A stretch of 64,000 nt of DNA from Acidobacteriota bacterium (GTDB taxonomy: Bacteria > Acidobacteriota > Vicinamibacteria > Vicinamibacterales > UBA823), in NCBI GenBank assembly GCA_002730525.1, contig PCAK01000040.1, positions 186,001 to 250,000 of the forward strand. The letters are read 5' to 3'. Position numbers and translations under genes: made by a program. Of this stretch, positions 16,214-51,327 are shown piece by piece. The notes beneath the pieces were generated by a model that ran no database searches, had not been told where the DNA came from, and saw nothing but the letters and a program-made list of their open reading frames with translations. The first letter of the stretch is position 1, and each line of letters begins with the position of its first letter.

Positions 16214-16390
16214 TATCTGATCTCCTGGCTACTCTCGGTCGGTCTCGACCTCTTCCGTATGACCGGCATCATATCGCGCTGGCTCGCCCTCCAACTACAT
16301 TGGCCCTTGCGTGCGAGATCGATTCCCTCGACCACCCCTCTCACCAAGACAGGTTTCTTCGTCCCGCGACACCGGAATGGAGCATCAGCC
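16214..16390. other. Divergent intergenic region, 177 bp
   Basis: This gap separates the minus-strand flavoprotein/ferredoxin pair from the plus-strand ThDP enzyme and must hold both promoters. Besides the palindrome at 16258-16273 and the ribosome site of the flavoprotein (AGGAG, 16222-16226), I see no gene and no convincing -35/-10 pair. Confidence 0.6.
16258..16273. promoter_or_regulatory. Palindromic operator candidate, TATGA-N6-TCATA (site B)
   Basis: Exact TATGA-ccggca-TCATA, flanked by CG on the left and TC on the right. It lies 45 bp from the flavoprotein start and 118 bp from the ThDP-enzyme start, so it could govern either direction. It is the same element as at 4522, 35509 and 55487. 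Confidence 0.6.
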
Positions 16391-21886: not shown

Positions 21887-22380
21887 CGAGGTGTCTCCCC
21901 TCCGCTGCCCGGGCCGATGAGCTCGGCCGCCGCTCGGACCGACTCGATGATCTGCGCGTACCCGGTGCAGCGACAAAGGTTCCCGACGAGGGCGTCGCGA
22001 ATCTCGGCGTCGCTCGGCGCGGGGGTGGCCTCGAGGAGCGCCGTCGCGCTCATGATCATTCCAGGTGTGCAGAACCCGCACTGAATCCCGCCCGTCTCGA
22101 CGAAAGCCTGCTGGACGTGCGACAGCTTGCCACCGGGGCCGAGCAGACCCTCGATGGTGGTGACCGCTCGGCCTTCCACCTCGAGGGCGACCAGCAGACA
22201 TGCGTTGACGGGACGTCCATCGAGGAGCACGGTGCACGAGCCACATTCACCGTTGCCGCAGCCCTCCTTCGTGCCGGTCAACCCGAGGTCCTCGCGCAGG
22301 ACGTCGATGAGCCGGGCGCTCGGCGCGACCTGGAGCGTGGTCGACGAGCCGTTAACCTCCAACGTGCACTCGACGTTCAT
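21883..22380 (-). CDS. Molybdenum hydroxylase [2Fe-2S] subunit
   Basis: The 165-residue product has both clusters of the small subunit: a plant-type ferredoxin motif [12 protein letters not shown] with a later NAC, and the alpha-helical motif [11 protein letters not shown]...CRCTGY. It passes electrons from the Mo centre to FAD. Length is normal. Starts at ATG 22380 overlapping the FAD-subunit stop, and its own end overlaps the large-subunit ATG by four bases, so the three subunits should be made in a fixed ratio. Confidence 0.92.
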
Positions 22381-23228: not shown

Positions 23229-24445
23229 GCCACGACTCCATCCTGGCGGAGCTGGCGGATCGCGTCCGGCTCGAGGCCGATCTCCGTGAGCACCGTATCG
23301 GTGTGCTCCCCGTACGCCGGAGCGAACGGCAGCCGGCCCTCTTGCTGCTCCAGGTACCGCGTGCTCACGGCCGGAGGCGGCAGGCGGACCCGCCGGCCGT
23401 CCGGTGCCGTCGTCTCGAGGAGCGCGGGGACGATGCACGGCAGGTCCATGACTTCGTCGATCAGGGTGATCGGCGCATGCGGGACGGCGGCGGCCACGAG
23501 CGCCGCGGCGACTTCGGCGGTCGGCCGGCCGCTGGTGATGGCCCGTATGGATCGGTGCAGCTCGTCCTTGACGGCGCGGCGCCCTTCGTTGGTCGACAGG
23601 TGGGGCAGCGCGAGCGAGGCGAACAGCGGGCGCTCGACGAGTCGACCCCACTGGGCGTCGCTGCCCACCGCAATGAAAACGAAGCCATCGCGCGTCGGAT
23701 AGGCGTTCACCGGGATGAACTGGCGATGCTCGTTACCCGCGCGCCGCAGCTCGTCGGCGGCGCTGCCCATGTCGAGCATCGGCAGAAACGTCTGCAGCCA
23801 CGACACGGCACCCTGGGCCATCGACACGTCGATCGGCCGACCGTGACCCGTCTCGGCACGCTCGAGCAGTGCGAGCAGCACTTGCGCGAAAGTTTCGTCG
23901 CCTGCCTTGAGATCGCTCAGCGGCGGGCCACATTGCAGTGGTGGCCCATCCGGATGGCCCGTGATGTCCATGTAGCCGCACAGCGCCTGCATCATCGGGT
24001 CGTAGCCCGGCACGTCGGGGTGGGCGAGTCCCATCGCCGAGATGCTGCACCAGATGAGCTCGGGCCGGATGTCGGCAAGGGTCGCGTAGTCGAAGCCGAG
24101 CGGTGCGTGCCGGGCCGGGAGTGTGTTTGTGCAGAAGATGTCGACCGGGAGATCGCGAACCAGACGATGGAGCAACGCGCGGCCCGATTCCTGCTTGAGG
24201 TCTATCGCGAGCGCCTGCTTCCCGACGTTGGGCGCGACGAAGTAGCTATGGCGGTCGGCACCGGCCACCGGCTGGCCGATATACCGGTTGGGGTCGCCCT
24301 TCGATCGCTGGCCGGATCGGGGCGTGGCCTCGATCCGGATCACTCGCCAGCCGAGTTGCACGAAGCGCTGGGTGGCGTACGACATCGAGAGCGCCTGCTC
24401 GATGCTGAGGACCACCTGTGGCTTTGGTGCGTAACGTTCGCCCAC
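23225..24445 (-). CDS. Family III CoA transferase (CaiB/BaiF)
   Basis: The 406-residue product follows the formyl-CoA-transferase fold: RVIRIEATPRSGQ, NVGKQALAIDLKQESGRALLHRLV, GYDPMMQALCGYM and PLSDLKAG, whose Asp (about 177) is at the place of the catalytic Asp 169 of formyl-CoA transferase, then GRPIDVSM. It would move CoA between an acyl-CoA and a free acid. The start is GTG at 24445, sharing one base with the mutase stop. It lies in the middle of an acyl-CoA operon, suggesting activation of a pathway acid without ATP. Confidence 0.85.
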   Translation of the reverse strand: MGERYAPKPQVVLSIEQALSMSYATQRFVQLGWRVIRIEATPRSGQRSKGDPNRYIGQPVAGADRHSYFVAPNVGKQALAIDLKQESGRALLHRLVRDLPVDIFCTNTLPARHAPLGFDYATLADIRPELIWCSISAMGLAHPDVPGYDPMMQALCGYMDITGHPDGPPLQCGPPLSDLKAGDETFAQVLLALLERAETGHGRPIDVSMAQGAVSWLQTFLPMLDMGSAADELRRAGNEHRQFIPVNAYPTRDGFVFIAVGSDAQWGRLVERPLFASLALPHLSTNEGRRAVKDELHRSIRAITSGRPTAEVAAALVAAAVPHAPITLIDEVMDLPCIVPALLETTAPDGRRVRLPPPAVSTRYLEQQEGRLPFAPAYGEHTDTVLTEIGLEPDAIRQLRQDGVVA

Positions 24446-26058
24446 TAGAACCTCACCGGCTCCTGGTATGTTCCGAAGACCGACTTGAGCGCGCCGCACA
24501 CCTCGCCGACCGTGCCGTACGCCTCGACGGCGTCCATGACGGCCGGCATGACGTTGCGGCCTCCGGAGGCATTCTCTCGCACGCGCGCGAGGGCTCGGGC
24601 GACCGCGTCCGAGTCCCGTTCGGTCCGGATGCGTCGAAGCCGCTCGATCTGACGGCCGGCCTCGGCCTGCCGGTAGGGGTGAAACTCCACCGACGGCTCC
24701 TCCGGTTCGTCTTCCGCGAAGCAGTTGACCCCGACCTTCTTGGTTTCGCCGCGCTGCTGCCGCAGTTCTCGCTCGAACGCCTGGCGATTCACCTCGGCCT
24801 GGACGCGTCCGTCGGTGACGCCCTGGACGATGCCGCCTTCCGCGTCGAGGCGGTCCATCGTCTCCACGATGAGCCGTTCCATCCGGTTGGTCATCGTTTC
24901 CACGAAGTACGAGCCGGCGAGTGGGTCGACCGTGTCGCAGAGCCCGATCTCGAGCATCAGGATCTGCATCGTGCGGAGCGACAACACGGCCGCGCGTTCG
25001 CTCGGAATGGTGTAGGCCTCGTCGTACGAGCAGAGCGCCATGGTCTGGGTGCCCGACAGGGCGCTGGACAGCGCGTAGTAGGCGCCGCGAACGATGTTGT
25101 TCTCCGGCTGCTGGATGGTCAGCCCCCCGCCCCCGCCGCCGGCGATCATGCGCAGCTTCATCGAGCGCGGATCTTTCGCGCCGTAGTGCTCCTTCAGGAT
25201 TTTCGCCCAGAGTCGCCGGCCGGCGCGGAACTTCGCGACCTGCTCCCAGACGTTGCCGTAGATATCGAAGTTGAACGAGAGGCCGCGCGCGAACTCGTCG
25301 ATGTCGAGCCCGCGCTCCAGCACGTGGTCGATGTAGGCCTTGGCGATGGCCAGCCCCGCGGCCATCTCGTAGGCCGGGTTCGCGCCCGATTCACGGATGT
25401 GGTACCCGCAGACGCTCACCGGGCTGTACCCGGGCACTTCGCGGGCGCAGAACTCGATCGTGTCTCCGACCAGCCGCATCGACGCGTCGACGGGAAAGAT
25501 CCAGGTGCCGCGCCCGATGAACTCCTTGAGGATGTCGTTCTGCGCGGTGCCGCGCAGCGCGGAGAGATCGAAGCCGCGCTTCCGGGCCATTGCGAAATAC
25601 ATCGCCATGATGGCGACCGCCGACCCGTTGATGGTCAGTGACACGGTGATCTGGTTCAGATCGATCTCCGCGAACGCCTGCTCCAGGTCGGCCAAGGTGT
25701 CGACCGCCATGCCGACCCGACCGACCTCGCCGTCGGCCATCGGGTCGTCGGAGTCGAGGCCGCACTGGGTCGGCAGATCGAACGCGACGTTGAGGCCGGT
25801 CTGGCCGCGTTCGATCAGGTAGAGAAAACGCTCGTGGGTCTCGGCCGCCGTGCCGAAGCCGGCGTACTGGCGCATCGTCCAGGGACGCGTCCGGTACATC
25901 TCGGCGTGAATGCCGCGTGTGTAGGGGTAGTCGCCCGGCGCTCCGATCGCATCGCTGCCGCCGCTCGCCTCCAGGTCCTCCGGCGTGTAGACGGGGTCGA
26001 TCTCGAGCCCCGACTCCCAGTGCACCCCGGCCGGCGAGTCCTTTCGCCGCTGACTCAT
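24445..26058 (-). CDS. Methylmalonyl-CoA-mutase-type acyl-CoA mutase, large (catalytic) subunit
   Basis: The 537-residue product has the substrate-binding TIM-barrel of B12 acyl-CoA mutases but no B12 domain, which is the next gene. Seen: PWTMRQYAGFGTAAETHERF, LPTQCGLDSDDP, the long internal GGGGGGLT linker-like stretch and SGTQTMALCSYDEAY. The Tyr in RQYAGF matches Tyr 89 of methylmalonyl-CoA mutase, where 2-hydroxyisobutyryl-CoA mutase has Ile and isobutyryl-CoA mutase has Phe. This favours methylmalonyl-CoA, but the active-site neighbour GYHIRESGA differs slightly, so a related dicarboxyl-CoA is possible. The ATG at 26058 overlaps the B12-subunit stop. Confidence 0.85.
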   Translation of the reverse strand: MSQRRKDSPAGVHWESGLEIDPVYTPEDLEASGGSDAIGAPGDYPYTRGIHAEMYRTRPWTMRQYAGFGTAAETHERFLYLIERGQTGLNVAFDLPTQCGLDSDDPMADGEVGRVGMAVDTLADLEQAFAEIDLNQITVSLTINGSAVAIMAMYFAMARKRGFDLSALRGTAQNDILKEFIGRGTWIFPVDASMRLVGDTIEFCAREVPGYSPVSVCGYHIRESGANPAYEMAAGLAIAKAYIDHVLERGLDIDEFARGLSFNFDIYGNVWEQVAKFRAGRRLWAKILKEHYGAKDPRSMKLRMIAGGGGGGLTIQQPENNIVRGAYYALSSALSGTQTMALCSYDEAYTIPSERAAVLSLRTMQILMLEIGLCDTVDPLAGSYFVETMTNRMERLIVETMDRLDAEGGIVQGVTDGRVQAEVNRQAFERELRQQRGETKKVGVNCFAEDEPEEPSVEFHPYRQAEAGRQIERLRRIRTERDSDAVARALARVRENASGGRNVMPAVMDAVEAYGTVGEVCGALKSVFGTYQEPVRF

Positions 26059-26462
26059 CGGGTGACCCGTTCCTCGATGAAGCCGACGACGGCGTCGAAC
26101 GGCGTGCCGGTTGGAAAGATGCCATTCACCCCGAGGGCGCCGAGCGCGGTGTGGTCTCGCCGTGGAATGTTCCCGCCGACGATCCAGACGACGTCGCTCA
26201 GGCCGCGCGCGCGCAGCGCGGCGGCGAGCTTGCCGCACAGCGGCAGGTGGGCGCCCGAGAGGATCGACAACCCGATCACGTCGACATCCTCCTCGAGAGC
26301 GGCCTGGGCGATCTCTTCGTGCGAGCGACGCAGGCCGGTGTAGATGACCTCCATGCCGGCGCGCATCAACGCTCGGGTGACCAGCTTGGCGCCGACGTCG
26401 TGTCCGTCGAGGCCCGGCTTGGCGACGAGGACGCGGATCGGGCGGCGTGGCGTGGCGCTCAG
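26055..26462 (-). CDS. Acyl-CoA mutase small subunit, cobalamin-binding
   Basis: The product of about 135 residues is a stand-alone B12-binding domain: RVLVAKPGLDGHDVGAK has the D-x-H-x-x-G motif, followed by SILSGAH (S-x-L) and VGGNIP (GG). It supplies the lower-ligand His for the mutase encoded next. No ATG, GTG or TTG exists at the expected place; a CTG at 26462 overlaps the previous stop (CTGA) and follows a purine-rich GAGGGGG, giving the normal family length. I therefore infer a CTG start. A much longer upstream frame is shadow of the acyl-CoA dehydrogenase gene. Confidence 0.8.
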   Translation of the reverse strand: MSATPRRPIRVLVAKPGLDGHDVGAKLVTRALMRAGMEVIYTGLRRSHEEIAQAALEEDVDVIGLSILSGAHLPLCGKLAAALRARGLSDVVWIVGGNIPRRDHTALGALGVNGIFPTGTPFDAVVGFIEERVTR

Positions 26463-27574
26463 TACAGCCCCCTCGCGATGTTTACCCGCAGGATCTCCGA
26501 GGTGCCGCCACCGATGAGCGTGAAGCGGACGTCTCGGAGATACCGCTCGATCGGGTAATCCCGGGCGTAGCCGTAGCTGGCGAAGATGCGGGCGGCTCGG
26601 TCGCAGATCCGCAGGGCGGCCTCCGACGCATGCAGCTTGGCCATCGAGGCTTCCTGGGCGCTGCCGCCGCCCTGCTCGCCGCGCCAGGCGGCCCACCACG
26701 TCATCCGCCGCGCCGCCTCGAGGTCGACCGCCATCTCCGCGAGATGCGCCTGGATCGCCTGGAATTTCCTGAGCGGGCGGTCGAATTGGCGGCGTTCGTC
26801 GGCGTAGGCGCGGGCGTCCTCGAAGGCGGCGCGACCCACGCCCAGGGCGAGCGCGGCCGTCAGCAGCCGGATCTCCGCGAGCACATCCCGCAAGCAGGAG
26901 GCGCCCTGCCCCGGGTCTCCCAGCACGCACGTCGCCGGCGTTTCCTCGAAGCCGACCTCCGAGGTGAGCGACGCGCGCACGCCCATCTTGTCTATGCTCC
27001 GTCCGACAGTCAGGCCGTCGGCGCCACGCTCGACGAGGAAGAAGCTCAGCTCGGTGTCTCCCGTGCGGGCCAGGACGGTGAAGAAGTCGGCGACGGGCGC
27101 CGAGGTCACCCAGGTCTTGGCCCCGCTGATCAGCCAGCGATCGCCGCGCGCCTCGGCTCGGGTCGTGACCGCCATCAGGTCGCTGCCGGCGTCCGGTTCG
27201 GTCATGCAGATGGCGCCGATGGCGTCGCCCGTCAGGGCCGGCAGAAAGAGGCGCTCGCGCAGCGCGCCTTCCGTGAACCGGTGGAGGAACCAGGTGCCCA
27301 TGAGCGACTGCATGGCGCAGGCCGCCGCGACCGACAGGCTGCCCCAGGCCAGCTCCTCGATGGCGAGCAGGTAGGAGAGGATGTCGGCCCCGCTGCCCTC
27401 GGGCTCGGGGTAGCGCATTCCGTAGAACCCGAGCGCGCCCACCTTGGTGAAGAGCTCCCGGGGAAAGTCCGGAGCTTCGTCAAGTTGGTCAGCGACGGGG
27501 CGGATCTCCTGCGCCGCGAAGCGATGAAACGTGTCGCGGATGACGCGCTGCTCGTCGCTCAGTGAAAGATCCAT
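26459..27574 (-). CDS. Acyl-CoA dehydrogenase
   Basis: The 371-residue product matches the ACAD family over its length: LSDEQRVIRDTFHRFAAQEI at the start, CMTEPDAGSDL for FAD/substrate binding, KTWVTSAPVADFF, RRQFDRPLRKFQAIQAHLAEM and YGYARDYPIERYLRDVRFTLIGGGTSEI. It oxidises an acyl-CoA to the enoyl-CoA, normally passing electrons to ETF. The usual catalytic Glu before GTS is Gly here; a Glu in LAEIRLL near residue 240 is at the alternative position used by isovaleryl-CoA dehydrogenase. This hints at a branched-chain or aryl substrate. One base separates it from hyuB. Confidence 0.87.
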   Translation of the reverse strand: MDLSLSDEQRVIRDTFHRFAAQEIRPVADQLDEAPDFPRELFTKVGALGFYGMRYPEPEGSGADILSYLLAIEELAWGSLSVAAACAMQSLMGTWFLHRFTEGALRERLFLPALTGDAIGAICMTEPDAGSDLMAVTTRAEARGDRWLISGAKTWVTSAPVADFFTVLARTGDTELSFFLVERGADGLTVGRSIDKMGVRASLTSEVGFEETPATCVLGDPGQGASCLRDVLAEIRLLTAALALGVGRAAFEDARAYADERRQFDRPLRKFQAIQAHLAEMAVDLEAARRMTWWAAWRGEQGGGSAQEASMAKLHASEAALRICDRAARIFASYGYARDYPIERYLRDVRFTLIGGGTSEILRVNIARGLY

Positions 27575-27575
27575 C

Positions 27576-29351
27576 TCAGTTTTCGGTCGTGCGCCGACCC
27601 ACGTCCGCGGCCATCGCCGCGCGGCGGGCCGCGGTCTCGGCTTCGAGGACCTGCCCGCTCTCCGGATCGATGACGACGCCGTAGGCGGATCGGGCGGCGT
27701 CGACGGAGATCAGCTCATCGGCGACCTCCCGACGCACCGTCTCGGCGGGGCGCTCGTGGGGTGGGCCGAAGCCGCCGCCGCCGCCCGCCCGCTGCACGTA
27801 GCCGGTGCCGGCGGGCACGCTCGCGACGATCTCCTTGCTCGCGGTCTTGCGGACCGTGCCGTCCGGTAGGTGGAGCTCGATCGAGTTGAGCGTGGCGTCC
27901 TGGCCGCCGAATAGCCCGAAGGCCGGCTCGACGTCGCCGTCGCCGAAGATGACGAGCTGCGTCTTCTCTCCGCCGACCCGGTACCGCGTCTCGACGCCGA
28001 GACCCCCGCGGAACCGGCCGGCGCCGGCCGAGTCGGTCAGGAACTCGTGCCGCTCCAGCAGGTGCGGGGTCTGCTGCTCGAACATCTCGTAGTCCTGGTC
28101 GAGCAGGCCCCCCGAGGCGTCGATCATGCCGATATGGTCGTAGCCGTCACAGTCGATCGTCGCGCCCGACCCGCCTTTCAAGCCCATGAAGAGGATGTCG
28201 ACGTAGGTATCGAGGCGGCGTGGATCGTGGCCGGTCGAGAGCGAGCAGAGCAGGTTGTTCCAGCCGGCCGTCACGCGGTCGGGGACCACCGGCGCCAGCG
28301 CCCGGATGATCGCGTCGGCGTTCGGCGGGCAGAGGTGGTTCCCGAACGTCGTGGCTGCCGGGTAGGCCGCGTTCAGGATCGTTCCCTCGGGAATGATGAT
28401 CTCCAGCGGTTCGAGCATCCCTTGATTGTGGGGGATTCTCGCGTCGACCATCTGCAGGAAGGTGAGGATGGTGGCGGACGCGCTGGAAGTGTAGGTCCCG
28501 TTGACGAAGCCGTCCGTCTGGGGATCGGTCTCGGAATAGTCGAACACGACGCGATCGTCCTCGACGGTGATCGCGACCCGGATCTGGTAGCGGGAACCTG
28601 GCGTCCGCCCATCGAAGTAGACAGAGGCCTCTCCGGAATAGGAGCCGTTCGGAATGGTTCGAATCTCGCGCTCCATCATCTGGCGGGTCGACTCGAAGAG
28701 CGCCGCCTTGTGTGCCGTGAACCGCTCGAGTCCGTACTTCTCGACGAGCGCGCGGAGCCGGCGTTCGCCGACGGTACAGCTGCCGATCTCCGCGCGCATG
28801 TCCTCCTCGACGATCGGCAGCCGCACGTTCGCAAAGATGAGATCCCACACGTCACGGCGCAGTTCGCCGCGCTCGTAGACCTTGACCGCGGGGATCCGCA
28901 GCGCCTCCTGCCAGACCTCGGTGGCGTTGGGGTTGTAGCCTCCGCGCACGGCGCCGCCGATGTCGGCCTGGTGCCCCTTGCAGGCCGCCCAGGCCGCCAG
29001 CGTGTCGCCGACGAAGATCGGCATGAAGGCCGCGACGTCATTGTTCTGGTTGCCCAGCGAAAAGACGTCGTTGTGGAAGAAGACATCGCCCGGGTAGACG
29101 TGGCCTCGAAACTGCTCGGCGATGTGGCTGCAGACCGGTCCGAGCGAAAAGCTCAGGATTGGCAGGTTCTCGGTCTGCTCGAGCATCCGACCTTCAGCGT
29201 CGTACAGGCCGGTCACGAAGTCCTTCGCCTCGCAGAGGATCGGTGAGCGCGTCGTCTTTTCCATCGCCACGCTCATCTCGTCGGTGATCGCCTTCAGGGC
29301 GCGTCCGATGATCGCCACGAGCACCTTGTCGATCGGGGTGCTACGGCTCAT
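27576..29351 (-). CDS. hyuB: Hydantoinase B/oxoprolinase/acetone carboxylase alpha-type subunit
   Basis: The 591-residue product matches the HyuB family: AITDEMSVAMEKTTRSPILCEAKDF, HNDVFSLGNQNNDVAAFMPIF, GHQADIGGAVRGG, FGNHLCPPNADAII and GGGGGFGPP near the C-terminus. With HyuA it forms an ATP-dependent amidohydrolase of hydantoins or 5-oxoproline, or a carboxylase of ketones such as acetone or acetophenone. No third carboxylase subunit is present, which favours the cyclic-amidase type, though the surrounding acyl-CoA genes leave an aryl-ketone carboxylase open. ATG 29351 overlaps the hyuA stop. Confidence 0.85.
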   Translation of the reverse strand: MSRSTPIDKVLVAIIGRALKAITDEMSVAMEKTTRSPILCEAKDFVTGLYDAEGRMLEQTENLPILSFSLGPVCSHIAEQFRGHVYPGDVFFHNDVFSLGNQNNDVAAFMPIFVGDTLAAWAACKGHQADIGGAVRGGYNPNATEVWQEALRIPAVKVYERGELRRDVWDLIFANVRLPIVEEDMRAEIGSCTVGERRLRALVEKYGLERFTAHKAALFESTRQMMEREIRTIPNGSYSGEASVYFDGRTPGSRYQIRVAITVEDDRVVFDYSETDPQTDGFVNGTYTSSASATILTFLQMVDARIPHNQGMLEPLEIIIPEGTILNAAYPAATTFGNHLCPPNADAIIRALAPVVPDRVTAGWNNLLCSLSTGHDPRRLDTYVDILFMGLKGGSGATIDCDGYDHIGMIDASGGLLDQDYEMFEQQTPHLLERHEFLTDSAGAGRFRGGLGVETRYRVGGEKTQLVIFGDGDVEPAFGLFGGQDATLNSIELHLPDGTVRKTASKEIVASVPAGTGYVQRAGGGGGFGPPHERPAETVRREVADELISVDAARSAYGVVIDPESGQVLEAETAARRAAMAADVGRRTTEN

Positions 29352-31438
29352 TGCGGGCTCCCGTGCCCCTCGCGCTCGAGCACCAGGGTGCCGAGTTCGT
29401 CGACGCGCGTGGTGAATGCGGCGCTGACGAAGAGCGTCGTGTCGACGCGCTCGATTAGCGCCGGCCCCACGATCTCGTGGGCGGTGCGCAGGGCGTGGCC
29501 GTCGTAGACCGGCACCTCGTCGAATCGCTCCGTTTCGGGAACGTAGGCCCGCCGCCGGCCCTTGAGTGCGTCGGAGGCGTCCCCGCCGCTCCCAAGCTTG
29601 GGGTAGCGTGGCTTGTCCGTGCGGCCGACCGAGCGGACCCGCACGGTGATCAGCGTGAGCCCGGTGCCCTCGGCTTCGAGGTCGTAGCCGTACAGCCGGT
29701 TGTGCTCGCGATGGAACGCCGATCCGATGGCATCGAGGTCGCCATTCGCGATCGCCTCCGCCGCCACCGGAACGGTGACCTCGTGGTACTGCTTGGCGTA
29801 GCGCAGGTCGAGGAAGACGCCGTGCTGGCGTCGTGCCTCCGGCACGCCCTCGCGAGCAAGTTCGGCGTCGCCAGACGCCATCAAGTCGGCGACGACCGCC
29901 TGGAGGCGACTCGGATCGAGATCGGAGAGGGCCGTCACGTAGGAGCGGACGTAGTCGTGCTGCAGATCGCTCATCAACATGCCGACCGCGCACAGTACCG
30001 AAGCCGGACTGGGCACCATGATAGTCTGGATGTCGAGTTCCTGCGCGAGCATGCAGGCGTGCAAGGCGCCCGCGCCGCCGGCCACGACCATCGGAAATTC
30101 ACGTGGGTCGAGACCGCGCCTGATCGTGATCTCCCGAACACCGTGCGCCATGTTCGCGTTGATCACGCGGTACATGCCGCCGGCGGCCGTCTCGACGTCC
30201 AGCCCCATCGGTGTCGCGACGTGCGTGGCGATGGCGGTCCGGGCCAGGTCCGGCCGGAGCGTGATCTGCCCGCCGGCGAAGAACGTCGGATCGAGATAGC
30301 CGAGCGCGAGATCGGCGTCGGTGCAGGTGGGACGCTCGCCGCCACGATCGTAGCAGGCCGGCCCGGGCGCGGCGCCCGCGGACTGGGGGCCCATGCGCAG
30401 CAGACCGCCGGCGTCGAGTCGCCCGATGCTGCCGCCGCCGGCCCCGATCGTCGTGATCTCCAGCATCGGCAGCGCGATGCGCAGCCGGTCGAGGTTGCTC
30501 TCGGCCTTCAGCGCGACCTCTCCGTTCCGGACCAGGGAGACGTCGAAGCTCGTTCCACCCATGTCCACGAGGAGCGCGCTTCGCTGACCGCCCGGGTCGG
30601 TGACGCTCAGGGCGGCGTTCGGTCCGGCGGCGGGTCCGGAGAGCAGCGTCGTCGCCGGGCGTTCCAGGATCGCGTCCGGGTGGCCGACCCCACCACTCGA
30701 CTGCATGATCAGCAGGACGCCGCCGAATCCGGCGCCTGCCAGGCGTCGCTGGAGGCTGGTGAGGTAGGTGCGCAGCACCGGACCGACGTAGGCGTTCAGG
30801 ACGGTTGTGGAGAGGCGGTTGTAGAACCGGATGCTCGGCAGGACCTCACTCGACACGCTCACGTAGGCATCGGGCAACTCGGTTCGTACAATCGCGGCCG
30901 CGGCGTCCTCGTGGGCCGCGTTCGCGAACGCGTTCATGAAGCAGACGGCCACGGCCTCGACCTCGGCCGCCCGCAGCACCTCGCACGCCCGGCGGACGCC
31001 GTCGAGATCCAGCGCCTCGATCTCGACGCCCTGGTAGTCCAGCCGGCCGCGCACCACCAGGCGCCAGCGCCTCGGCACGATCGGGGTCACGTTGCGATAG
31101 CGATTGTCGTACTGCTCCTCGCGCACGCCACGTCGCATCTCGAGCGCGTCGCGCACGCCGTGGGTCGTCAGCAACCCCACGCGCGCCCCGCTGCGGGTAA
31201 GCGTCGCATTGGTCGTCACCGTCGTGCCATGGACGATCGTGTCCACCTGGGTGGCCAGCTCGCCCACCTCGAGTTCGAGGCTCTGCGCGATTCGCTCGAG
31301 GCCGTGCAGCACGCCGATCGACGGGTCGTCCGGTGTGGAGAGGACCTTGAACGTGGCGACCTCGTCGCCCGACGAGTGGAGGAAGAGATCGGTGAACGTG
31401 CCGCCGACGTCAATCCCGATCTTGAAGCGATCCGCCAT
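29348..31438 (-). CDS. hyuA: Hydantoinase A/oxoprolinase ATP-binding subunit
   Basis: The 696-residue product has the HyuA layout: GIDVGGTFTDLFLH at the start, HGTTVTTNATLTRSGARVGLLTT, the middle actin-like domain with SGPAAGPNAAL, VDMGGTSFDVSL (second phosphate loop) and TTIGAGGGSIGRLD, and a C-terminal HyuA_C domain. It binds ATP and couples hydrolysis to ring opening or carboxylation by HyuB. ATG at 31438 overlaps the iorB stop (ATGA), and its end overlaps hyuB, so the pair is strictly co-translated. Confidence 0.88.
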   Translation of the reverse strand: MADRFKIGIDVGGTFTDLFLHSSGDEVATFKVLSTPDDPSIGVLHGLERIAQSLELEVGELATQVDTIVHGTTVTTNATLTRSGARVGLLTTHGVRDALEMRRGVREEQYDNRYRNVTPIVPRRWRLVVRGRLDYQGVEIEALDLDGVRRACEVLRAAEVEAVAVCFMNAFANAAHEDAAAAIVRTELPDAYVSVSSEVLPSIRFYNRLSTTVLNAYVGPVLRTYLTSLQRRLAGAGFGGVLLIMQSSGGVGHPDAILERPATTLLSGPAAGPNAALSVTDPGGQRSALLVDMGGTSFDVSLVRNGEVALKAESNLDRLRIALPMLEITTIGAGGGSIGRLDAGGLLRMGPQSAGAAPGPACYDRGGERPTCTDADLALGYLDPTFFAGGQITLRPDLARTAIATHVATPMGLDVETAAGGMYRVINANMAHGVREITIRRGLDPREFPMVVAGGAGALHACMLAQELDIQTIMVPSPASVLCAVGMLMSDLQHDYVRSYVTALSDLDPSRLQAVVADLMASGDAELAREGVPEARRQHGVFLDLRYAKQYHEVTVPVAAEAIANGDLDAIGSAFHREHNRLYGYDLEAEGTGLTLITVRVRSVGRTDKPRYPKLGSGGDASDALKGRRRAYVPETERFDEVPVYDGHALRTAHEIVGPALIERVDTTLFVSAAFTTRVDELGTLVLEREGHGSPQ

Positions 31439-32067
31439 CAGGATTGCCGCTCCCGGCTCACGCCGGCCCCCTCCCGCTGCGCGGCGACGCCGGCTTGGCC
31501 GAGATCGAACGCTTCGCGATTCGCCTGCAGGAACTCTGGTCTGCAGCGCCCGGCCACGGCCCGCCACAGCGCCGAGCCGCCGAACGGCAGCAGGTCGAGC
31601 CCTGCCAGCGCACCGAGCAGGACGATGTTGAGCGTTCGCGCCACGCCGACCTGCTCGACCACGGCGCGGCCGTCTACGAGGTCCAGCCCGCCGGCGACCG
31701 CGCGCAGGTCGCCCAGGATCGAGTCCAAGAGCGGGTAGGGCCGGCCCGCGCGGGTCAGCTCGTCGGGCACGATCCGCCCGGTGTTGAGCAGGACCCGGGT
31801 TCGGGGGCCGATCTTCGGGATGGCGCGCAGGGCCTCGAGGGGCTCGAACCCGACGACGACATCGGCCACTCGAAGGAACGAACTCTCGCTCGGGCCGATC
31901 AGCACCGAGCACTCGACGCTGCCGCCGCGTTGGGACATGCCGTGCAGCTGTCCTTCCACAACCGGCAGACCCGTCGCGTGCGCCGCGTCGCCCAGAATCC
32001 GGCCCGCGGTAAGGACGCCCTGGCCCCCGACACCGACGATGAGGACCTCGAAGCGCGCCTCAGACAC
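31438..32067 (-). CDS. iorB: Indolepyruvate:ferredoxin oxidoreductase beta subunit
   Basis: The 209-residue product has the gamma-type domain of 2-oxoacid oxidoreductases: EVLIVGVGGQGVLTAGRIL, VVEGQLHGMSQRGGSVECSV and GFEPLEALRAI. It is the small partner of IorA and shares in oxidative decarboxylation of aryl pyruvates to aryl-acetyl-CoA. It starts at a GTG (32067) inside the end of the upstream fusion gene, an eight-base overlap that supports co-translation. No ferredoxin domain is attached, unlike the second copy at 51328-52206. Confidence 0.87.
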   Translation of the reverse strand: MSEARFEVLIVGVGGQGVLTAGRILGDAAHATGLPVVEGQLHGMSQRGGSVECSVLIGPSESSFLRVADVVVGFEPLEALRAIPKIGPRTRVLLNTGRIVPDELTRAGRPYPLLDSILGDLRAVAGGLDLVDGRAVVEQVGVARTLNIVLLGALAGLDLLPFGGSALWRAVAGRCRPEFLQANREAFDLGQAGVAAQREGAGVSRERQS

Positions 32068-35000
32068 GCGCCACCATCCGGATCGCGTCGTTCGGGCAGA
32101 TCTTGGCGCAGACGGCGCAGCCGGTGCAGAGGTCGGCGTCGATGTCGACCTGGCCATCGACCTCCACCAGGGCCGGACAAGCGAACAGGTCGATGCAGGC
32201 TCGACAGTTGCCACAGGCGCCGCACAGGAGGCAGCGGGACGCCTCGGCTCGCGCTTCCGCCTCGCTCAATCGCCCGGCGACCTCTCGAAAATCCGAGACC
32301 CTCGTGTCCGGAGGCAGCTCATGCGGTTCCACCCGCGCGGCCTGGAAGGCGGCGTCGGCGGGCGCCGGCGCGGGCGGGTGGCCTACCGGCGCGACTCGGG
32401 CGGGCGGCGGGCGACGGTCGGCCGTCTCCGCGCCCCTCAGTGATCGGTCGATGCCCCAGGCGGCGCGCTGGCCGGCGGCGATGGCACCGGTGACGGTGCG
32501 CTCGCCTCGGGTGAGGTCGCCTCCGGCGAAAACGAGTGGATGCGAGGTGGCGCCGGTCGCCGGGTCGATCTGGATGTGACCGTCGTCGGTCTCGGTCAGG
32601 CCGGTCGACTTTGGCTCGAGGCAGTCGAGGTCGGGCTGCTGGCCGATCGCGAGGACGATCTGGTCGGCGTCGAGCACGAACTCGCCAGCGCCGACTTCGT
32701 CGCCGATGGCCGCGCAGCAGACGCTCTTCGAGCCGAGACGAACCGGTCGCACGCCCGTCCGCACGGCGATGCCTTCCTGCTTCGCTGCGGCGATCTCACT
32801 TCGGATGGCCGGCATCTCGTCGTCGGCCTCGATGCATGCGATCGTCACCTGCTCGGCTCCGAGGCGGCGTCCGGTTCGGGCGGCGTCGATGGCGGCATTC
32901 CCGCCGCCGATGACGACCACGCGGCGTCCGGTGTCGACGGCGGCTCCCCGTGCCACGGAGGCCAGATACTCGAGTGCGGACACCTGGGCAGGCGAGTCCG
33001 GAAGGTCCGCGCCCGCCAGATCGAGCGTTGTGGCCCTGGTGGCCCCGAGGGCCAGGAACACGGCGTCGAAGCCCTGCTCGAGCAATCCGGCGACCGTGAC
33101 ATCGCGCCCGAGCCGTGTGTTTCCGACGAACCTAACGCCGAGGTCGAGGATCTGCGCCAGGTCTCGCTGCACTGCCTCAGGCGGCAGACGGTACGCCGGA
33201 ATGCCGTGGACGAGCAGGCCGCCCGGGCGCTCGGCGGCGTCGTAGAGCGTGACGTCGTAGCCGCGTAGCGCGAGGTCCCGCGCCGCGACGAGCCCTGCCG
33301 GCCCGGCCCCGGCGACCGCCACCTTCAGACCGTGTGCCGGTTCGCGTTCCGGCTCGATGGTCGTGTCAGGCCGATCGGCCGCCCACTCGACCACGAACCG
33401 CTTGAGGCCATTGATCGCAACCGACCCGTCGACACCCTGTCGAACGCAGGCCGCCTCGCAGGGCTGGTGGCAGACCCGGCACACCGACTCCGGCAGGGCG
33501 CACCGATCTGCGATGTGCCCCCACGCTTCGACGTACTCGCCGGCGGCGATGTGTCCGGCGTATCCCTGGATGCAGAGGGAGAGCGGGCATTCGGTGCTGC
33601 ACGGCGCCAAGGGTGTCGACGAGTTCGCGCCGCGAGCGGCGCACCCTCGCGCCAGTTGGCGCTCGAAGCCCGTGGTCACGCACTGGGTGCAGCGCAGATC
33701 GAGCGACTCGCGACCGCAGCTGCGACACCGGTCGTGATCGATCTCGAACAGCGGCAGGGTCGTGTCCGGGCCCCGCTCTCGCGCCTCGTCGACGGGACAG
33801 GTGCGTTCGACGACGATGACGCTGACACTCCGCGCCTCCCGCGCCCGGCGAAAAGCGGCCACCGTCCCGGGCAGGTCGTACGAGTCGACCGTTTCGACAT
33901 GTGACGCGCCCAGCGCGCGGGCAACGGCTTCGATGGAGGCGGAGCCGTTCCGACGGAGACTCGGACTGGCCTGGAATCCAGTCATGGCCGTCGTCTGGTT
34001 GTCCAGGACGACCGCGACCATGTTGACGTCTTCCTTGACGGCGTTGAGCAAGGCGGGCATGCCGGCGTGAAAGAAGGTCGAGTCGCCCAGGAATCCCACC
34101 GTGCGCTGGCCCGTCATCCGGCTGACGCCGGCCGCCAGCGAGAACCCGGCGCCCATGCAGACCAGCGCGTCGGCCGTGTCGAGCGGGGCACCGTAGCCCA
34201 GCGTGTAGCACCCGATGTCGTTGAAGTAGAGCTGCTCCTCGCCGAAGGCCGCGCGCGCCGCCAGGAACGTGGCGCGATGCGGGCAGCCGGGGCAGAGGGT
34301 CGGGGGCCGAGTCGGCACCGGGGCGGGTGCGGGCTGGTCGCGCGCTGTCAGCGGGACGTCGAGCGCGCGTCCGATCGCCTCTTCGAGTCGTTCCGGCGTC
34401 TGCTCGCCGACCTCGCTGAGATGACCGGTACGCTGGCCGAGGATCTCGGTCCGCAGTCCATGGACCGCGCAGAGGTTGCGGACCCGGTCCTCGATGAACG
34501 GCGACAGTTCCTCGACGACGAGCACCTTGTCCACCCCGTCCAGGCGGCGCGCGAGTTGTGCTTCCGGCAGCGGGTAGACGGCACCCAGGGTCCACAGAGC
34601 GATTCGGTCGCCGAGGGCGTGATGCCCGAGCAGGTCGGCGCAGGTCGCCGCCGGCGCGCCCACCGCCAGAATCGCCTCCGTCGAGTTCCCCGTGCATTCA
34701 AAGAAGCCCGCACCCGCCATCAACTCGCCCGCCCGTCCGATTCGCTCCTGGAGCCCGACGCGCATCTGCTGGGCGTTGTGCGGAACAGGCACGTAGCGCT
34801 GCGGGTCTCGCACGAAGCCCCGCACGCTCGGCGCGCGTAGCGATCCGAACGTGACGGTGCCACGCGTGTGGCAGACACGCGTCGTCGGACGCAGCAGCAC
34901 CGGCAGGCGCGTTTTCTCCGAGAGCTCGAAGGCGAAGCGAGCCATGGTGAGTGCCTGCTGGGGCGTGCTCGGGTCGAGAATCGGCAGGTGCAGCATCGGA

Positions 35001-35419
35001 CCGAGATGGCGCTGGTCCTGCTCGTTCGGGCTGGTCTTGCAGCCCGGATCGGCGGCGGAGACGATGACCATGCCGGCCTCGACCCCGATGTACGGGACCG
35101 TGGAGAGCGGGTCGCCCGCGACGAGTAGGCCGAGGTGCTTCATCGAGCAGATCGACCGCGCGCCAGCCAGCGACGCGGCAAACGCCATTTCGAGTGCGAG
35201 TTTCTCGTTGACGGAGTACTCGAAGACGATACCGCGTTCAGCCGAGATCCGGGCGAACGCGTCGCCGATCTCGGACGCGGGTGTGCCCGGGTAGCCGGAG
35301 GCGAACGCCACGCCGGCTTCGAGCGCACCGCGCACGATGGCCTCGTTCCCCAGGAGGTGCCCGGAGTGTCCCGCGCGGTCGATCAGCAGCGGGTGCTCCG
35401 GATTGAACGTTGATTTCAC
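32060..35419 (-). CDS. iorA: IorA fused to a GltD-like NAD(P)H flavoprotein and a C-terminal dicluster ferredoxin
   Basis: The product has about 1119 residues, nearly twice a normal IorA. Residues about 20-565 are IorA: GNEAIVRGALEAGVAFASGYPGTP, the ThDP motif FLGDSTFFHAG...LDNQTTAMTG. Around residue 565-690 come a Cys pair region (CRSCG) and the Fer4_20 domain of glutamate synthase small chain (PCSTECP, CRVCHQPCEAAC). Residues about 700-1000 form the FAD and NAD(P)H domains (AGAGPAGLVAARDL; VIGGGNAAIDAART). The end has CLLCGACGNCRAC and CTGCAVCAKICP. So oxidation of a 2-oxoacid could be coupled directly to NAD(P). I chose GTG 35419, which GGGAAG precedes; a TTG at 35437 lacks a ribosome site. 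Confidence 0.85.
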   Translation of the reverse strand: MKSTFNPEHPLLIDRAGHSGHLLGNEAIVRGALEAGVAFASGYPGTPASEIGDAFARISAERGIVFEYSVNEKLALEMAFAASLAGARSICSMKHLGLLVAGDPLSTVPYIGVEAGMVIVSAADPGCKTSPNEQDQRHLGPMLHLPILDPSTPQQALTMARFAFELSEKTRLPVLLRPTTRVCHTRGTVTFGSLRAPSVRGFVRDPQRYVPVPHNAQQMRVGLQERIGRAGELMAGAGFFECTGNSTEAILAVGAPAATCADLLGHHALGDRIALWTLGAVYPLPEAQLARRLDGVDKVLVVEELSPFIEDRVRNLCAVHGLRTEILGQRTGHLSEVGEQTPERLEEAIGRALDVPLTARDQPAPAPVPTRPPTLCPGCPHRATFLAARAAFGEEQLYFNDIGCYTLGYGAPLDTADALVCMGAGFSLAAGVSRMTGQRTVGFLGDSTFFHAGMPALLNAVKEDVNMVAVVLDNQTTAMTGFQASPSLRRNGSASIEAVARALGASHVETVDSYDLPGTVAAFRRAREARSVSVIVVERTCPVDEARERGPDTTLPLFEIDHDRCRSCGRESLDLRCTQCVTTGFERQLARGCAARGANSSTPLAPCSTECPLSLCIQGYAGHIAAGEYVEAWGHIADRCALPESVCRVCHQPCEAACVRQGVDGSVAINGLKRFVVEWAADRPDTTIEPEREPAHGLKVAVAGAGPAGLVAARDLALRGYDVTLYDAAERPGGLLVHGIPAYRLPPEAVQRDLAQILDLGVRFVGNTRLGRDVTVAGLLEQGFDAVFLALGATRATTLDLAGADLPDSPAQVSALEYLASVARGAAVDTGRRVVVIGGGNAAIDAARTGRRLGAEQVTIACIEADDEMPAIRSEIAAAKQEGIAVRTGVRPVRLGSKSVCCAAIGDEVGAGEFVLDADQIVLAIGQQPDLDCLEPKSTGLTETDDGHIQIDPATGATSHPLVFAGGDLTRGERTVTGAIAAGQRAAWGIDRSLRGAETADRRPPPARVAPVGHPPAPAPADAAFQAARVEPHELPPDTRVSDFREVAGRLSEAEARAEASRCLLCGACGNCRACIDLFACPALVEVDGQVDIDADLCTGCAVCAKICPNDAIRMVARV

Positions 35420-35508
35420 TCTGCTTCCCACCGACAAGGGAGATCAGCTGACGGAGTACCAGTAGCATACTTCCGACGGGATCATGCTCTGGTAGCTCTC
35501 TCCCCGGG

Positions 35509-35524: not shown

Positions 35525-35613
35525 TTCCGACCGATCATTCCGGCCCCGGTCGCCACCTTCGACGAGCTGACGGACCGCTGCCCACGGTGGCTTGGCAACG
35601 CACGAAAGATGTC

Positions 35614-37644
35614 ATGAGCAGAGTGCCGTCGACGACTCGCGAGAATCCCCTCATAGCTCGGCCCAGCCGGCCGATGCCCCAGCGCATCGGCATCGTCGGC
35701 GCTGGCACCATCGGACCGGACATCGGGTACTACCTGAAGAGTGCCATTCCGGACCTGACACTCGTGCTGGTCGACGTGGCGCCCGCCGCACTGGAGCGCG
35801 CCGTCGCTCGGATCGAGGGGTATGTGGACAAGGGGCTCGCCCGACGGAAGCTGACCGAGCAGCAGGCCGTCCAGGTGCGTCGCAACCTGGTCACGACCCA
35901 GGACTATGCCGCGATGGCCGACTGCGACTGGGTCCTCGAGGCGGCGACCGAGAATCTCGAGCTGAAGCGGAAGATCTTCCGGGACATCGAGGCCGTCGTC
36001 CGCCCCGACGCACTCATCACGTCGAACACCAGTTCGCTCCCGGCGTCGAGGCTCTTTGGCGATCTCATACACAAGCGGCGTGCGACCGTCACCCACTTCT
36101 TCGCGCCGGCGTTCAGGAACCCAGCCGTGGAGGTCGTCGGTTGGGAGCACGGCGATCCCGAGGTCCTGGAGTACCTCCGCTGGCTGTTCTGCACGACCGG
36201 CAAGGTCCCGTTCGTGACCGCGGACGCGCTCTGCTTCATGCTCGACCGCGTCTTCGACAACTGGTGCAACGAGGCTGGGTATCTACTCGACCGGGCCAGC
36301 GCGTCAGAGGTGGACAGCGTGGCGGTGGACTACGTTCATGCTGGACCGTTCTTCGTTCTGAACCTCGCACGGGGCAATCCGATCATCGTGGAGACGAACA
36401 CGGTTCAGATGGAGGAGGGCGCGCACTACCGGCCGGCGCCGATCTTTGGGTCGGTGGATCTCTGGAAGACGGCGACGGCGGGCGAGCGGGTGGCGGTGAT
36501 GTCGGAAACCGAGGCGGCCGTGCGCGACCGGCTGCTCGGGGCCCTCTTTTCGCAAACGGTCGACATTCTCGACCGCGACATCGGATCGCCGGCCGACCTC
36601 AACCTCGGCTGCTGCCTGGCGCTCGGCTTCAAGCAAGGCCCGCTCGACCTGATGCGCAGCCTCGGTGACGCGGAGGTCGGGCGCATCCTCGAGCGTTTCG
36701 CGCGGGAGCGTCCCGGCATGCCGACGGCGGTGCGCGATCTCGCCGCTTACCGGGAGTTTCGAAGGGTCGTGCTGGTCGATGAGGTGGACGGCGTCAAGGT
36801 GCTGACGATCAGGCGCCCGCAAGCGCTCAATGCGCTCGATGACGAGGTCACCGACGAGCTGCTTGGCGTCATCCGACAGTTCGAGCAAGACGCGACGGTT
36901 CGCGGTTTCGTGATCGTGGGCTACGGGTCCCGGGCGTTCTGTGCCGGTGCCGACATCGGACGGTTTCCCGAGATGCTGGGGAGTCTGAGCGACTGCGTCC
37001 AGTACTCCCGCGATTGTTCCCGCTTGCTCGTTCACCTCGACCGGATGACCAAGCCGGTGGTCGCCGCACTCAACGGCATGGCGCTCGGCGGTGGCGTGGA
37101 GCTCGCCTTGCGCTGTCGCGGGATCGTCGCGACGCGGGAGACCTGGCTGCAGTTCCCCGAGGTGACCCTGGGGATCGCGCCCGGGATCGGCGGCATGGTG
37201 GTGCCGTATCGCCGCTGGCCCCAGGCGGCATCGGTCTTTCACGACATGCTGCGCCTTGGCCGCAAGCTCGACGCCGCTCGAGCTCACGCGCTCGGTGTGG
37301 TCGACGCGCTGGTGGGCCCGGAGGACGACCTGATTGCGTCGGCGGTGTCCCGCGTGGGCGAGCTTTCGGGAGCGGCGGGCTCTGCCGCCGACCTGGACGG
37401 CCCGGTGGAGATCCCGATGCCGTCCGAACTGGATGACGGGGCGTTTGGGAAGCGGCCGCTCAGCCGGGAGGTCATCGGCATCATCGACCAGGCCATCGTG
37501 GCTGCGGCGCAGGCCGACGGCCTCGAGGTGGCTCTGGAAATCGGCTACGCCGCGTTCGGGGCGACGGCCTGCACCGAGGCGGCCCGCGAGGGCGTCACGG
37601 CATTCCTGGAGAAACGACGTCCGGATTTCGCGCGGACCGGATGA
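35614..37644 (+). CDS. 3-Hydroxyacyl-CoA dehydrogenase/enoyl-CoA hydratase fusion
   Basis: The product has about 676 residues with the dehydrogenase first. Its NAD motif is IGIVGAGTIGPDIG, with SNTSSLP, and THFFAPAFRNPAVEVV near residue 160 carries the catalytic His and partner Glu. The second HAD C-terminal domain follows. Residues about 390-660 are an enoyl-CoA hydratase: AFCAGADIG, ALGGGVELAL and FPEVTLGIAPG hold the oxyanion hole and both catalytic Glu. This order is the reverse of FadB and is known from archaea and some bacteria. It would hydrate an enoyl-CoA and oxidise the hydroxyacyl-CoA. The start could also be ATG 35674 (MPQRIGIVG). Confidence 0.87.
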   Translation: MSRVPSTTRENPLIARPSRPMPQRIGIVGAGTIGPDIGYYLKSAIPDLTLVLVDVAPAALERAVARIEGYVDKGLARRKLTEQQAVQVRRNLVTTQDYAAMADCDWVLEAATENLELKRKIFRDIEAVVRPDALITSNTSSLPASRLFGDLIHKRRATVTHFFAPAFRNPAVEVVGWEHGDPEVLEYLRWLFCTTGKVPFVTADALCFMLDRVFDNWCNEAGYLLDRASASEVDSVAVDYVHAGPFFVLNLARGNPIIVETNTVQMEEGAHYRPAPIFGSVDLWKTATAGERVAVMSETEAAVRDRLLGALFSQTVDILDRDIGSPADLNLGCCLALGFKQGPLDLMRSLGDAEVGRILERFARERPGMPTAVRDLAAYREFRRVVLVDEVDGVKVLTIRRPQALNALDDEVTDELLGVIRQFEQDATVRGFVIVGYGSRAFCAGADIGRFPEMLGSLSDCVQYSRDCSRLLVHLDRMTKPVVAALNGMALGGGVELALRCRGIVATRETWLQFPEVTLGIAPGIGGMVVPYRRWPQAASVFHDMLRLGRKLDAARAHALGVVDALVGPEDDLIASAVSRVGELSGAAGSAADLDGPVEIPMPSELDDGAFGKRPLSREVIGIIDQAIVAAAQADGLEVALEIGYAAFGATACTEAAREGVTAFLEKRRPDFARTG

Positions 37645-37669
37645 CGGATCACGACGACGAGGAGGGTCG

Positions 37670-38863
37670 ATGCCACTCGAGCGAATATTCATTCCGTACG
37701 GGGCCTACTGGAGCACGCCGTTCTGCAAGTGGCAGGGCCGTTTCGCCGGCGAGCACTCGATGAAACTGGCCGCCAGCGTCGCGCGCCGCGCGTTCGACGA
37801 GGGGTGTGGCCAGCTCGAGCGCCTCGACGGCATCGTCCTGGGGACCACGGTGATGCAGCCGCAGAGCTTCTACGGCGCACCCTGGCTCGCCGGCATGATC
37901 GGGGCCGACGGGCTCACCGGCCCGACGATCTCGCAGGCCTGCGCCACTTCGGCCGCCATCGTCGCCAGTGCCGCGCTGCAGATCGAAGCCGGTCAACGAG
38001 GATGCGTGCTCGCGGTCGCCTGCGACCGCACGAGCAACGGCCCGCACGTCTACTACCCGAATCCATCGGGACCGGGCGCCCTGGGGGAGGCCGAGAACCC
38101 GGTCTGGGACAACTTCAACCGGGATCCGTTTGCCGGCAACGCCATGCTCGAGACGGCGGAGAACGTCGCGCGCGAAGCCGGGATCACTCGGGAAGAACAG
38201 GACGCCATGGCGCTGCTCCGCAGCGAGCAGTACCAGGCGGCGCTGGCCGACGACCGCGCGTTCCAGAAGCGCTACATGATGCCGGTCGTTCTGAACGCGG
38301 GTAAGAAGAGCGAGCGCGTCGTCGACCGGGACGAGGGAGTGTTCGGCACGACCGCCGACGGGCTGGCGAGGCTGAAGCCCGTCCTGGACGGTGGGACGGT
38401 GACCTACGGGACGCAGACCTATCCCGCCGACGGGAACGCGGGTGTCGTCCTCTGCGACCGGGAGGCCGCGGAGCACTTCGCGACACGACCCGGCGTGAGC
38501 ATCCAGGTTCTGGGCTTCGGCTCGGCCAGGGCGAAGAAGGGCTTCATGCCGATGGCGGTCGTGCCGGCCGCCCGGCAGGCGCTGGACGACGCCGGCGTGG
38601 CGATCGCGGACTGTGCCGCGGTCAAGACCCATAATCCGTTCGCCGTCAACGATGTCTACCTCTGTCGAGAGCTGGTGCTGGAACCGGCAAAGGTCAATCG
38701 CTACGGGTCGCCGCTGGTCTTCGGCCACCCGCAGGCGCCCACGGGGTTGCGGGCGATGATCGAGCTGATCGAGGAGCTGGTCGAGCGCGGCGGCGGCCTG
38801 GGGCTCTTCTCCGGCTGCGCGGCGGGGGACACCGCGATGGCGGTGGTATTCAGGGTCGGCTGA
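37670..38863 (+). CDS. Thiolase (acetyl-CoA C-acyltransferase)
   Basis: The 397-residue product has the three thiolase active-site regions: QACATSAA near residue 88 with the acylated Cys, FGHPQAPTG near residue 350 with the His, and FSGCAAGDTAM near residue 382 with the second Cys. It would split a 3-oxoacyl-CoA made by the preceding fusion enzyme. GGAGGG precedes the ATG by six bases; 25 bp separate the two genes. Sequence around the first Cys (CATS rather than CASG/CGSG) suggests a branch away from standard acetyl-CoA acetyltransferases. Confidence 0.87.
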   Translation: MPLERIFIPYGAYWSTPFCKWQGRFAGEHSMKLAASVARRAFDEGCGQLERLDGIVLGTTVMQPQSFYGAPWLAGMIGADGLTGPTISQACATSAAIVASAALQIEAGQRGCVLAVACDRTSNGPHVYYPNPSGPGALGEAENPVWDNFNRDPFAGNAMLETAENVAREAGITREEQDAMALLRSEQYQAALADDRAFQKRYMMPVVLNAGKKSERVVDRDEGVFGTTADGLARLKPVLDGGTVTYGTQTYPADGNAGVVLCDREAAEHFATRPGVSIQVLGFGSARAKKGFMPMAVVPAARQALDDAGVAIADCAAVKTHNPFAVNDVYLCRELVLEPAKVNRYGSPLVFGHPQAPTGLRAMIELIEELVERGGGLGLFSGCAAGDTAMAVVFRVG

Positions 38864-51323: not shown

Positions 51324-51327
51324 CGCT

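Follow-up and report, generated by a model that had tools for sequence, protein, structure and literature searches.

An IorA-type protein apparently carrying an inserted GltD-like flavoprotein: a probable NAD(P)+-linked 2-oxoacid oxidoreductase in an indoleacetate-type operon of Acidobacteriota

The usual electron acceptor of 2-oxoacid:ferredoxin oxidoreductases (OFORs) is ferredoxin, and respiring bacteria then have to re-oxidise it. Can such an enzyme dispense with the carrier and reduce a nicotinamide directly? The question is raised by a gene in a stretch of 64,000 nucleotides, hereafter the window, of an Acidobacteriota bacterium of the Vicinamibacterales lineage UBA823 (assembly GCA_002730525.1, contig PCAK01000040.1, positions 186,001 to 250,000). 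The gene encodes a single protein that joins IorA, the thiamine diphosphate (ThDP)-binding subunit of indolepyruvate oxidoreductase, to a GltD-like flavoprotein module and a dicluster ferredoxin. Judging from its modules and neighbourhood, we consider that this fusion probably serves as the large subunit of a 2-oxoacid oxidoreductase linked to NAD(P)+. The most likely candidate is a coenzyme A (CoA)-acylating indolepyruvate:NAD+ oxidoreductase.

A sequence-only reading of the window had described one frame of about 1119 residues, with IorA followed by a Fer4_20 domain, an FAD/NAD(P)H module and a C-terminal ferredoxin. Searches with Pfam and NCBIfam models of the kind it had called for returned this domain content, and place the gene, whose strand had been left unsaid, on the minus strand; the plus-strand translation of the interval is closed by stops. 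The open reading frame (ORF) runs from a TTG at 35437 to 32060 (1125 residues), with no stop or frameshift along its length, and the 1119-residue version corresponds to an in-frame GTG at 35419. Since the same-genus orthologue could not begin earlier than the position aligned with a third candidate, the GTG at 35431, the gene probably extends over 32060-35431 and encodes 1123 residues. Residue numbers below are those of the 1125-residue version, unless the 1119-residue numbering is indicated. The IorA model TIGR03336 covers residues 27-599 (613.6 bits, under the equivalog cut-off of 650.9), Fer4_20 (PF14691) matches residues 587-688, Pyr_redox_2 matches residues 705-989, and Fer4 and Fer4_21 match the dicluster ferredoxin at the C terminus. 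PRK12771 (NF009410) covers residues 607-1123 with 419.9 bits, under its curated cut-off of 516. The protein has the attributes of an IorA, namely a POR_N domain and a ThDP-binding C-domain with the GDS...DN motif, the expected C-terminal 2x[4Fe-4S] ferredoxin, here displaced to the end of the fusion, and an adjoining IorB gene (31438-32067), which begins with a GTG inside the end of the fusion gene, so that the two genes share 8 nucleotides.

Could this be an assembly chimera or an annotation artefact? The assembly that holds the window consists of 45 contigs, and all other fusions were found in metagenome-assembled genomes (MAGs). Yet a break between the IorA and GltD parts, which the sequence-only reading had named as decisive against it, is also absent from the 13 further MAG contigs, of several projects and phyla, in which the same single-frame fusion occurs with 52-93% identity. 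Following its taxonomic spread, as that reading had proposed, gave no fusion in near relatives outside the genus, one more plain homolog at the level of the class, and, at the level of the phylum, one fusion with 60% identity together with further plain homologs. A scan for conserved peptides in 84,980 species genomes found it in MAGs of Acidobacteriota, Planctomycetota, Acidimicrobiia (Actinomycetota) and Myxococcota, and there are now 14 fusion loci including that of the window, three of which are cut by contig ends. Comparison of the window gene with the same-genus copy gave a ratio of nonsynonymous to synonymous substitution rates (dN/dS) of 0.09 for the junction and of 0.14-0.30 for the other parts; every module, junction included, is under purifying selection. 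Because the fusion recurs in MAGs of several projects and dN/dS is low across the junction, we exclude a chimera, to which we give practically no credence. In a tree of IorA, all fusions form one clade (100/100), whose sister group consists of plain IorAs from the same operon (100/100; joint support 99/100). A Binatia fragment (L057, 10001-10555), 77% identical to the IorA start of the fusion, falls among the fusions and their sisters; it ends at the contig edge, is too short to tell fused from plain, and may be a further fusion.

The flavoprotein looks inserted between the ThDP core of IorA and IorA's own ferredoxin, rather than appended, because the C-terminal ferredoxin is of the IorA type: in 11 fusions it scores 53-64 bits against a hidden Markov model (HMM) of IorA ferredoxins and 22-32 bits against one of stand-alone PRK12771 ferredoxins. 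Our first idea, that the ferredoxin had arrived together with a PRK12771 partner, was ruled out by this comparison. The scan of near relatives revealed no unfused IorA and PRK12771 genes lying side by side.

The cysteines suggest how electrons might cross the protein. Four invariant residues of the ThDP core (C376, C379, C404 and C541 in the alignment, 1119-residue numbering) presumably bind the catalytic proximal [4Fe-4S] cluster. Outside this core, 20 cysteines are invariant among the fusions, truncated stretches aside, a count sufficient for up to five further [4Fe-4S] clusters. Five of them (571, 574, 583, 622 and 653) are specific to the fusions, being absent from 13 stand-alone flavoprotein homologs apart from one with a cysteine aligned at 574. 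In an AlphaFold2 model (pLDDT 78.8, pTM 0.56), residues 15-363 match the PFOR/OFOR fold (Z 33.7 to 9bt4_A) and residues 596-1114 match the GltD-like chains of NfnABC and StnABC (Z 32-33.5), both in the 1119-residue numbering; the fold search covered PDB libraries, and its VIA-align rows are re-ranked Foldseek hits only.

Which nicotinamide would be reduced? Aligned NADP-binding GltD-like homologs of known structure have YRR in the loop that follows strand two of the NAD(P) domain, as do all 13 stand-alone homologs. The window protein has CIE instead, and CIE, CLE or SLE occur in 8 of 13 fusions, the other five keeping YRR. Loss of such arginines with gain of an acidic residue usually indicates a preference for NAD+. 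As the NADP-type arginines are lost and an acidic residue is gained, the motif suggests NAD+ as the better guess for the window protein, and NADP+ for the YRR-bearing fusions.

The substrate is suggested by the genomic context. The fusion gene heads a tight minus-strand operon that continues with IorB, HyuA, HyuB, an acyl-CoA dehydrogenase, a B12-binding subunit, a mutase, a family III CoA transferase, a molybdenum hydroxylase and an aminotransferase (Table 1). Indoleacetate degradation includes a molybdenum hydroxylase step. The hydantoinase-type pair, CoA transferase, B12 mutase and molybdenum hydroxylase occur together, as in iaa operons. The iaa gene set was described for the O2-independent degradation of indoleacetate in Aromatoleum, and the replacement of the catalytic YEG by GGG is the diagnostic motif of its dehydrogenase IaaF (PMC8360864). 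GGG is present in all 11 dehydrogenases that we examined from related operons, and YEG or FEG stands in its place in the five controls, of which four are paralogues of the same genome and the fifth is an unrelated neighbour. The operon therefore matches the indoleacetate pathway in its predicted functions, by gene content and by the GGG motif; generic N-heterocycle and aminoadipate pathways were set aside once the motif had been found. Four loci (L032, L033, L048 and L063) have the same operon with a plain IorA carrying a normal ferredoxin, and apart from the presence or absence of the GltD module the operon is conserved. As these sister operons hold a ferredoxin-type IorA, the change of electron acceptor looks like a natural swap at one fixed step of one fixed pathway.

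The modules, cofactor motifs, operon, recurrence and GGG motif are read from the sequence, and from them we predict the substrate, the order of electron carriers, the use of NAD+ rather than NADP+ and the direction of the reaction. The ThDP core and IorB would convert indolepyruvate and CoA to indoleacetyl-CoA and CO2. The two electrons would leave ThDP singly through the proximal cluster, pass along the chain of further clusters to the FAD of the inserted GltD/StnC-like module, and be handed as a hydride to NAD+ (or to NADP+ in the YRR-bearing fusions). The indoleacetyl-CoA formed would then be oxidised by the molybdenum hydroxylase to a 2-oxoindole, whose ring would be opened by HyuAB at the expense of ATP, followed by CoA transfer, the B12 mutase, the IaaF-type decarboxylating dehydrogenase, a hydratase/dehydrogenase and a thiolase, towards anthraniloyl-CoA. 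Electron transfer from a 2-oxoacid to NAD+ is energetically very favourable, and its reversal very unfavourable. The host genome has heme-copper oxidase and Rnf/Nqr-type genes, and a respiring host would presumably gain by sending these electrons straight to NADH. That 2-oxoacid electrons might pass straight to NAD(P)+ had been put forward by the sequence-only reading, and both the anatomy of the protein and the existence of the same operon with a plain IorA support it well.

Other uses of the flavin can be envisaged. Among solved structures, those closest to the module belong to chains of the bifurcating complexes NfnABC and StnABC, so that the FAD might be a site where 2-oxoacid electrons are split or merged, with NAD(P)+ as one carrier and ferredoxin, or some other, as the second. 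The dicluster ferredoxin fits such a bifurcation, and the arginine of NfnB (R201) and StnC (R239) is kept in the fusions (GIPxYR), although it does not discriminate. What does is the ligand of the FAD-proximal cluster, which is a Glu in bifurcating NfnB, whereas in StnC the position is occupied by Lys170 and the FAD reportedly does not bifurcate (PMC10482914). This ligand is Glu in 12 of the 13 stand-alone homologs but Lys, as in StnC, in all 13 fusions, and none of the operon proteins scanned was recognised as an NfnA- (FNR-like), HydBC- or electron-transfer flavoprotein-type subunit. For these two reasons simple electron transfer to NAD(P)+ is preferred, and bifurcation, which the sequence-only reading had also entertained, is improbable. 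A confurcating enzyme, which would merge low-potential electrons of indolepyruvate with the higher-potential ones of the IaaF-type dehydrogenase into NADH, is a speculation in which we place very little faith; if true, it would explain how IaaF gets re-oxidised. Equally hard to credit is a reverse operation in which NAD(P)H would drive the reductive carboxylation of aryl-acetyl-CoA to arylpyruvate for amino-acid synthesis, another suggestion of that reading. OFOR chemistry is reversible with low-potential ferredoxin, but NAD(P)H, with its potential of about -320 mV, is far from reducing enough for the 2-oxoacid couple (roughly -500 mV), and the surrounding genes are those of a catabolic pathway, including transporters and enzymes of beta-oxidation. 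The GltD module might also be a passive or alternative port, the flavin only re-oxidising or regulating a C-terminal ferredoxin that still reduces free ferredoxin. This ferredoxin does keep all its eight IorA-type cysteines, yet the flavin, nicotinamide and cluster motifs are all conserved and under purifying selection, the five extra cysteines arose with the fusion, and the sister operons manage without the module, which makes such a role rather unlikely.

Direct reduction of NAD(P)+ by the fusion is the reading that we retain, most likely with indolepyruvate as the substrate. IOR-type enzymes take several arylpyruvates, and HyuA has its best score against a caprolactamase model, so that an aryl or branched 2-oxoacid other than indolepyruvate might be used in an operon degrading a different lactam-forming N-heterocycle. 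The full gene set and the IaaF-specific GGG fit indoleacetate degradation step by step, and we regard another substrate as unlikely, though it deserves to be kept in mind. Several observations weigh against our interpretation. The fusions of L042 and L047 stand with IorB alone, with no iaa genes within reach, and the substrate may differ between members of the family. Aromatoleum aromaticum enters the pathway by the CoA ligase IaaB, not by IorAB (PMC8360864). The full-length model is only moderately confident in domain packing, leaving the relative placement of the two halves uncertain (pTM 0.56), and a Glu in place of an Arg suggests the use of NAD+ without being proof. The two loci outside iaa-type operons (L042, 9762-13843; L047, 10001-14061), where fusion and IorB both occur, keep the NADP-type YRR, and a second role is possible there.

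Table 1. Features of the fusion gene and of the surrounding operon (window coordinates)
Feature	Position	Strand	Basis
IorA::GltD-like::ferredoxin fusion gene	32060..35437	-	single ORF, Pfam/NCBIfam domains, 13 further fusion loci
IorA core, residues about 27-560, ThDP motif GDS...DN and four invariant Cys	33758..35359	-	TIGR03336, POR_N, TPP_enzyme_C
Junction C571-x2-C574-x8-C583, invariant in fusions	33689..33727	-	alignment with stand-alone flavoprotein homologs
Fer4_20 cluster domain; extra Cys622 and Cys653; Lys679 at StnC K170 / NfnB Glu position	33374..33679	-	PF14691, alignment
FAD and NAD(P)-binding module (Pyr_redox_2)	32471..33325	-	Pfam, alignment
CIE replacing the 2'-phosphate motif YRR, residues 868-870	32828-32836	-	alignment
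C-terminal CxxC and IorA-type dicluster ferredoxin, residues 1069-1114, 10 invariant Cys	32096..32233	-	alignment, HMM comparison
IorB, POR gamma/beta subunit, GTG start	31438..32067	-	PF01558, IOR_beta
HyuA, putative ATP-dependent lactam hydrolase large subunit, IaaC/E-like, start approximate	29348..31441	-	Hydantoinase_A, caprolactamase alpha model 685.7 bits
HyuB, putative lactam hydrolase second subunit, IaaC/E-like, start approximate	27576..29354	-	Hydantoinase_B, caprolactamase beta model 375.2 bits
IaaF-like decarboxylating acyl-CoA dehydrogenase, GGG in place of catalytic YEG at 26504-26512	26459..27574	-	domain match, motif
B12-binding mutase subunit, IaaGH-like, start approximate	26055..26462	-	TIGR00640
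Acyl-CoA mutase large subunit, IaaGH-like, start approximate	24445..26061	-	MM_CoA_mutase 610 bits
CoA-transferase family III, IaaL-like	23225..24499	-	PF02515
Molybdenum hydroxylase, three subunits: XdhB 22377-about 23260, XdhC 21883-22380, XdhA 19472-about 21880	19472..23260	-	domain matches
HisC-like aminotransferase, candidate tryptophan aminotransferase, start approximate	18297..19430	-	Aminotran_1_2, TIGR01141 303 bits
Divergent pair: 3-hydroxyacyl-CoA dehydrogenase/enoyl-CoA hydratase fusion and thiolase (beta-oxidation end of pathway)	35587..38863	+	domain matches

Several other genes of the window deserve mention. In the divergent pair, the dehydrogenase/hydratase fusion (35587-37644, plus strand) has the dehydrogenase first, the reverse of the order in FadB and FadJ. 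Beside the operon lie a benzoylformate-decarboxylase-like ThDP enzyme (16004-18331, plus strand) and a fumarate-reductase-like flavoprotein (14279-16213, minus strand). The sequence-only reading had noted a normal IorAB elsewhere in the genome: a canonical IorA does stand at 52206-54056 (679 bits, above the 650.9 of TIGR03336), but next to it lies, at 51328-52542, a fusion of a POR subunit with a ferredoxin, and after that a KorAB-like pair. The suggested division of roles between the two copies is plausible, the fusion standing in an iaa-type operon and the plain copy beside KorAB and PaaK. That second cluster (49321-55387, minus strand) also includes a PaaK-like CoA ligase, and its two catalytic pairs may share a single gamma subunit. 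Finally, a protein encoded at 41862-43118 (minus strand) scores above the reductive dehalogenase cut-off of TIGR02486 (227.8 versus 160.35 bits), a predicted function in a genome that also has a heme-copper oxidase.

The acceptor was seemingly swapped within one pathway step by the insertion of a flavoprotein, and the two existing versions of the operon offer a clean test of the effect of such a swap on energetics and reversibility. Within the fusions, the loops suggest that some may have changed from NADP to NAD. The operon also extends iaa-type degradation of auxin and tryptophan to uncultured Acidobacteriota, Planctomycetota and Acidimicrobiia. It shares with that of A. aromaticum (PMC8360864) the hydantoinase-type ring-opening enzyme, the CoA transferase, the B12 mutase and the GGG-motif dehydrogenase IaaF, and differs at the entry, where IaaB is replaced by an aminotransferase and the IorA fusion with IorB, no CoA ligase being recognised in the operon.

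NAD(P)+-linked 2-oxoacid oxidoreductases are already known as a kind; the literature searched yielded no IorA with an inserted GltD/StnC-type module. The pyruvate:NADP+ oxidoreductase (PNO) of Euglena and Cryptosporidium is a pyruvate-oxidising OFOR fused to a cytochrome-P450-reductase-type FMN/FAD domain, through which electrons reach NADP+; the principle of an OFOR fused to a flavoprotein for direct NAD(P)+ reduction is the same, whereas the module here is of the Fer4_20 and Pyr_redox_2 (GltD/StnC) type and lies within IorA. PadEFGHI, the phenylglyoxylate:NAD+ oxidoreductase of Azoarcus evansii, is a 2-oxoacid:acceptor oxidoreductase that reduces NAD+ and makes aryl-CoA, but its separate PadE-I subunits belong to another OFOR branch, in contrast to the single fused IorA-type large subunit with IorB. 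The name of this enzyme is that given in a title cited in PMC5109826 (Hirsch et al. 1998). With IorAB (TIGR03336/TIGR03334) the fusion shares the ThDP core, the cysteines of the proximal cluster, the IorB partner and the dicluster ferredoxin, and it differs by the Fer4_20, FAD and NAD(P) module before this ferredoxin, the five extra invariant cysteines and the TIGR03336 score below the cut-off. From bifurcating NfnAB it departs by having Lys instead of the Glu ligand of NfnB, and by the lack of a recognised NfnA partner among the operon proteins scanned. Like StnC of Sporomusa ovata StnABC (8oh5) and the NfnABC chains (9bov, 9n5u), it has a GltD-like FAD/NAD(P) module that is fused to iron-sulfur domains and carries Lys as the ligand residue of the proximal cluster. 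StnC, however, has a NuoG-like domain and a HydBC-type bifurcating partner, whereas the fusion, in which the scans recognised no NuoG-like domain, joins the module to a 2-oxoacid oxidase and is followed only by the dicluster ferredoxin.

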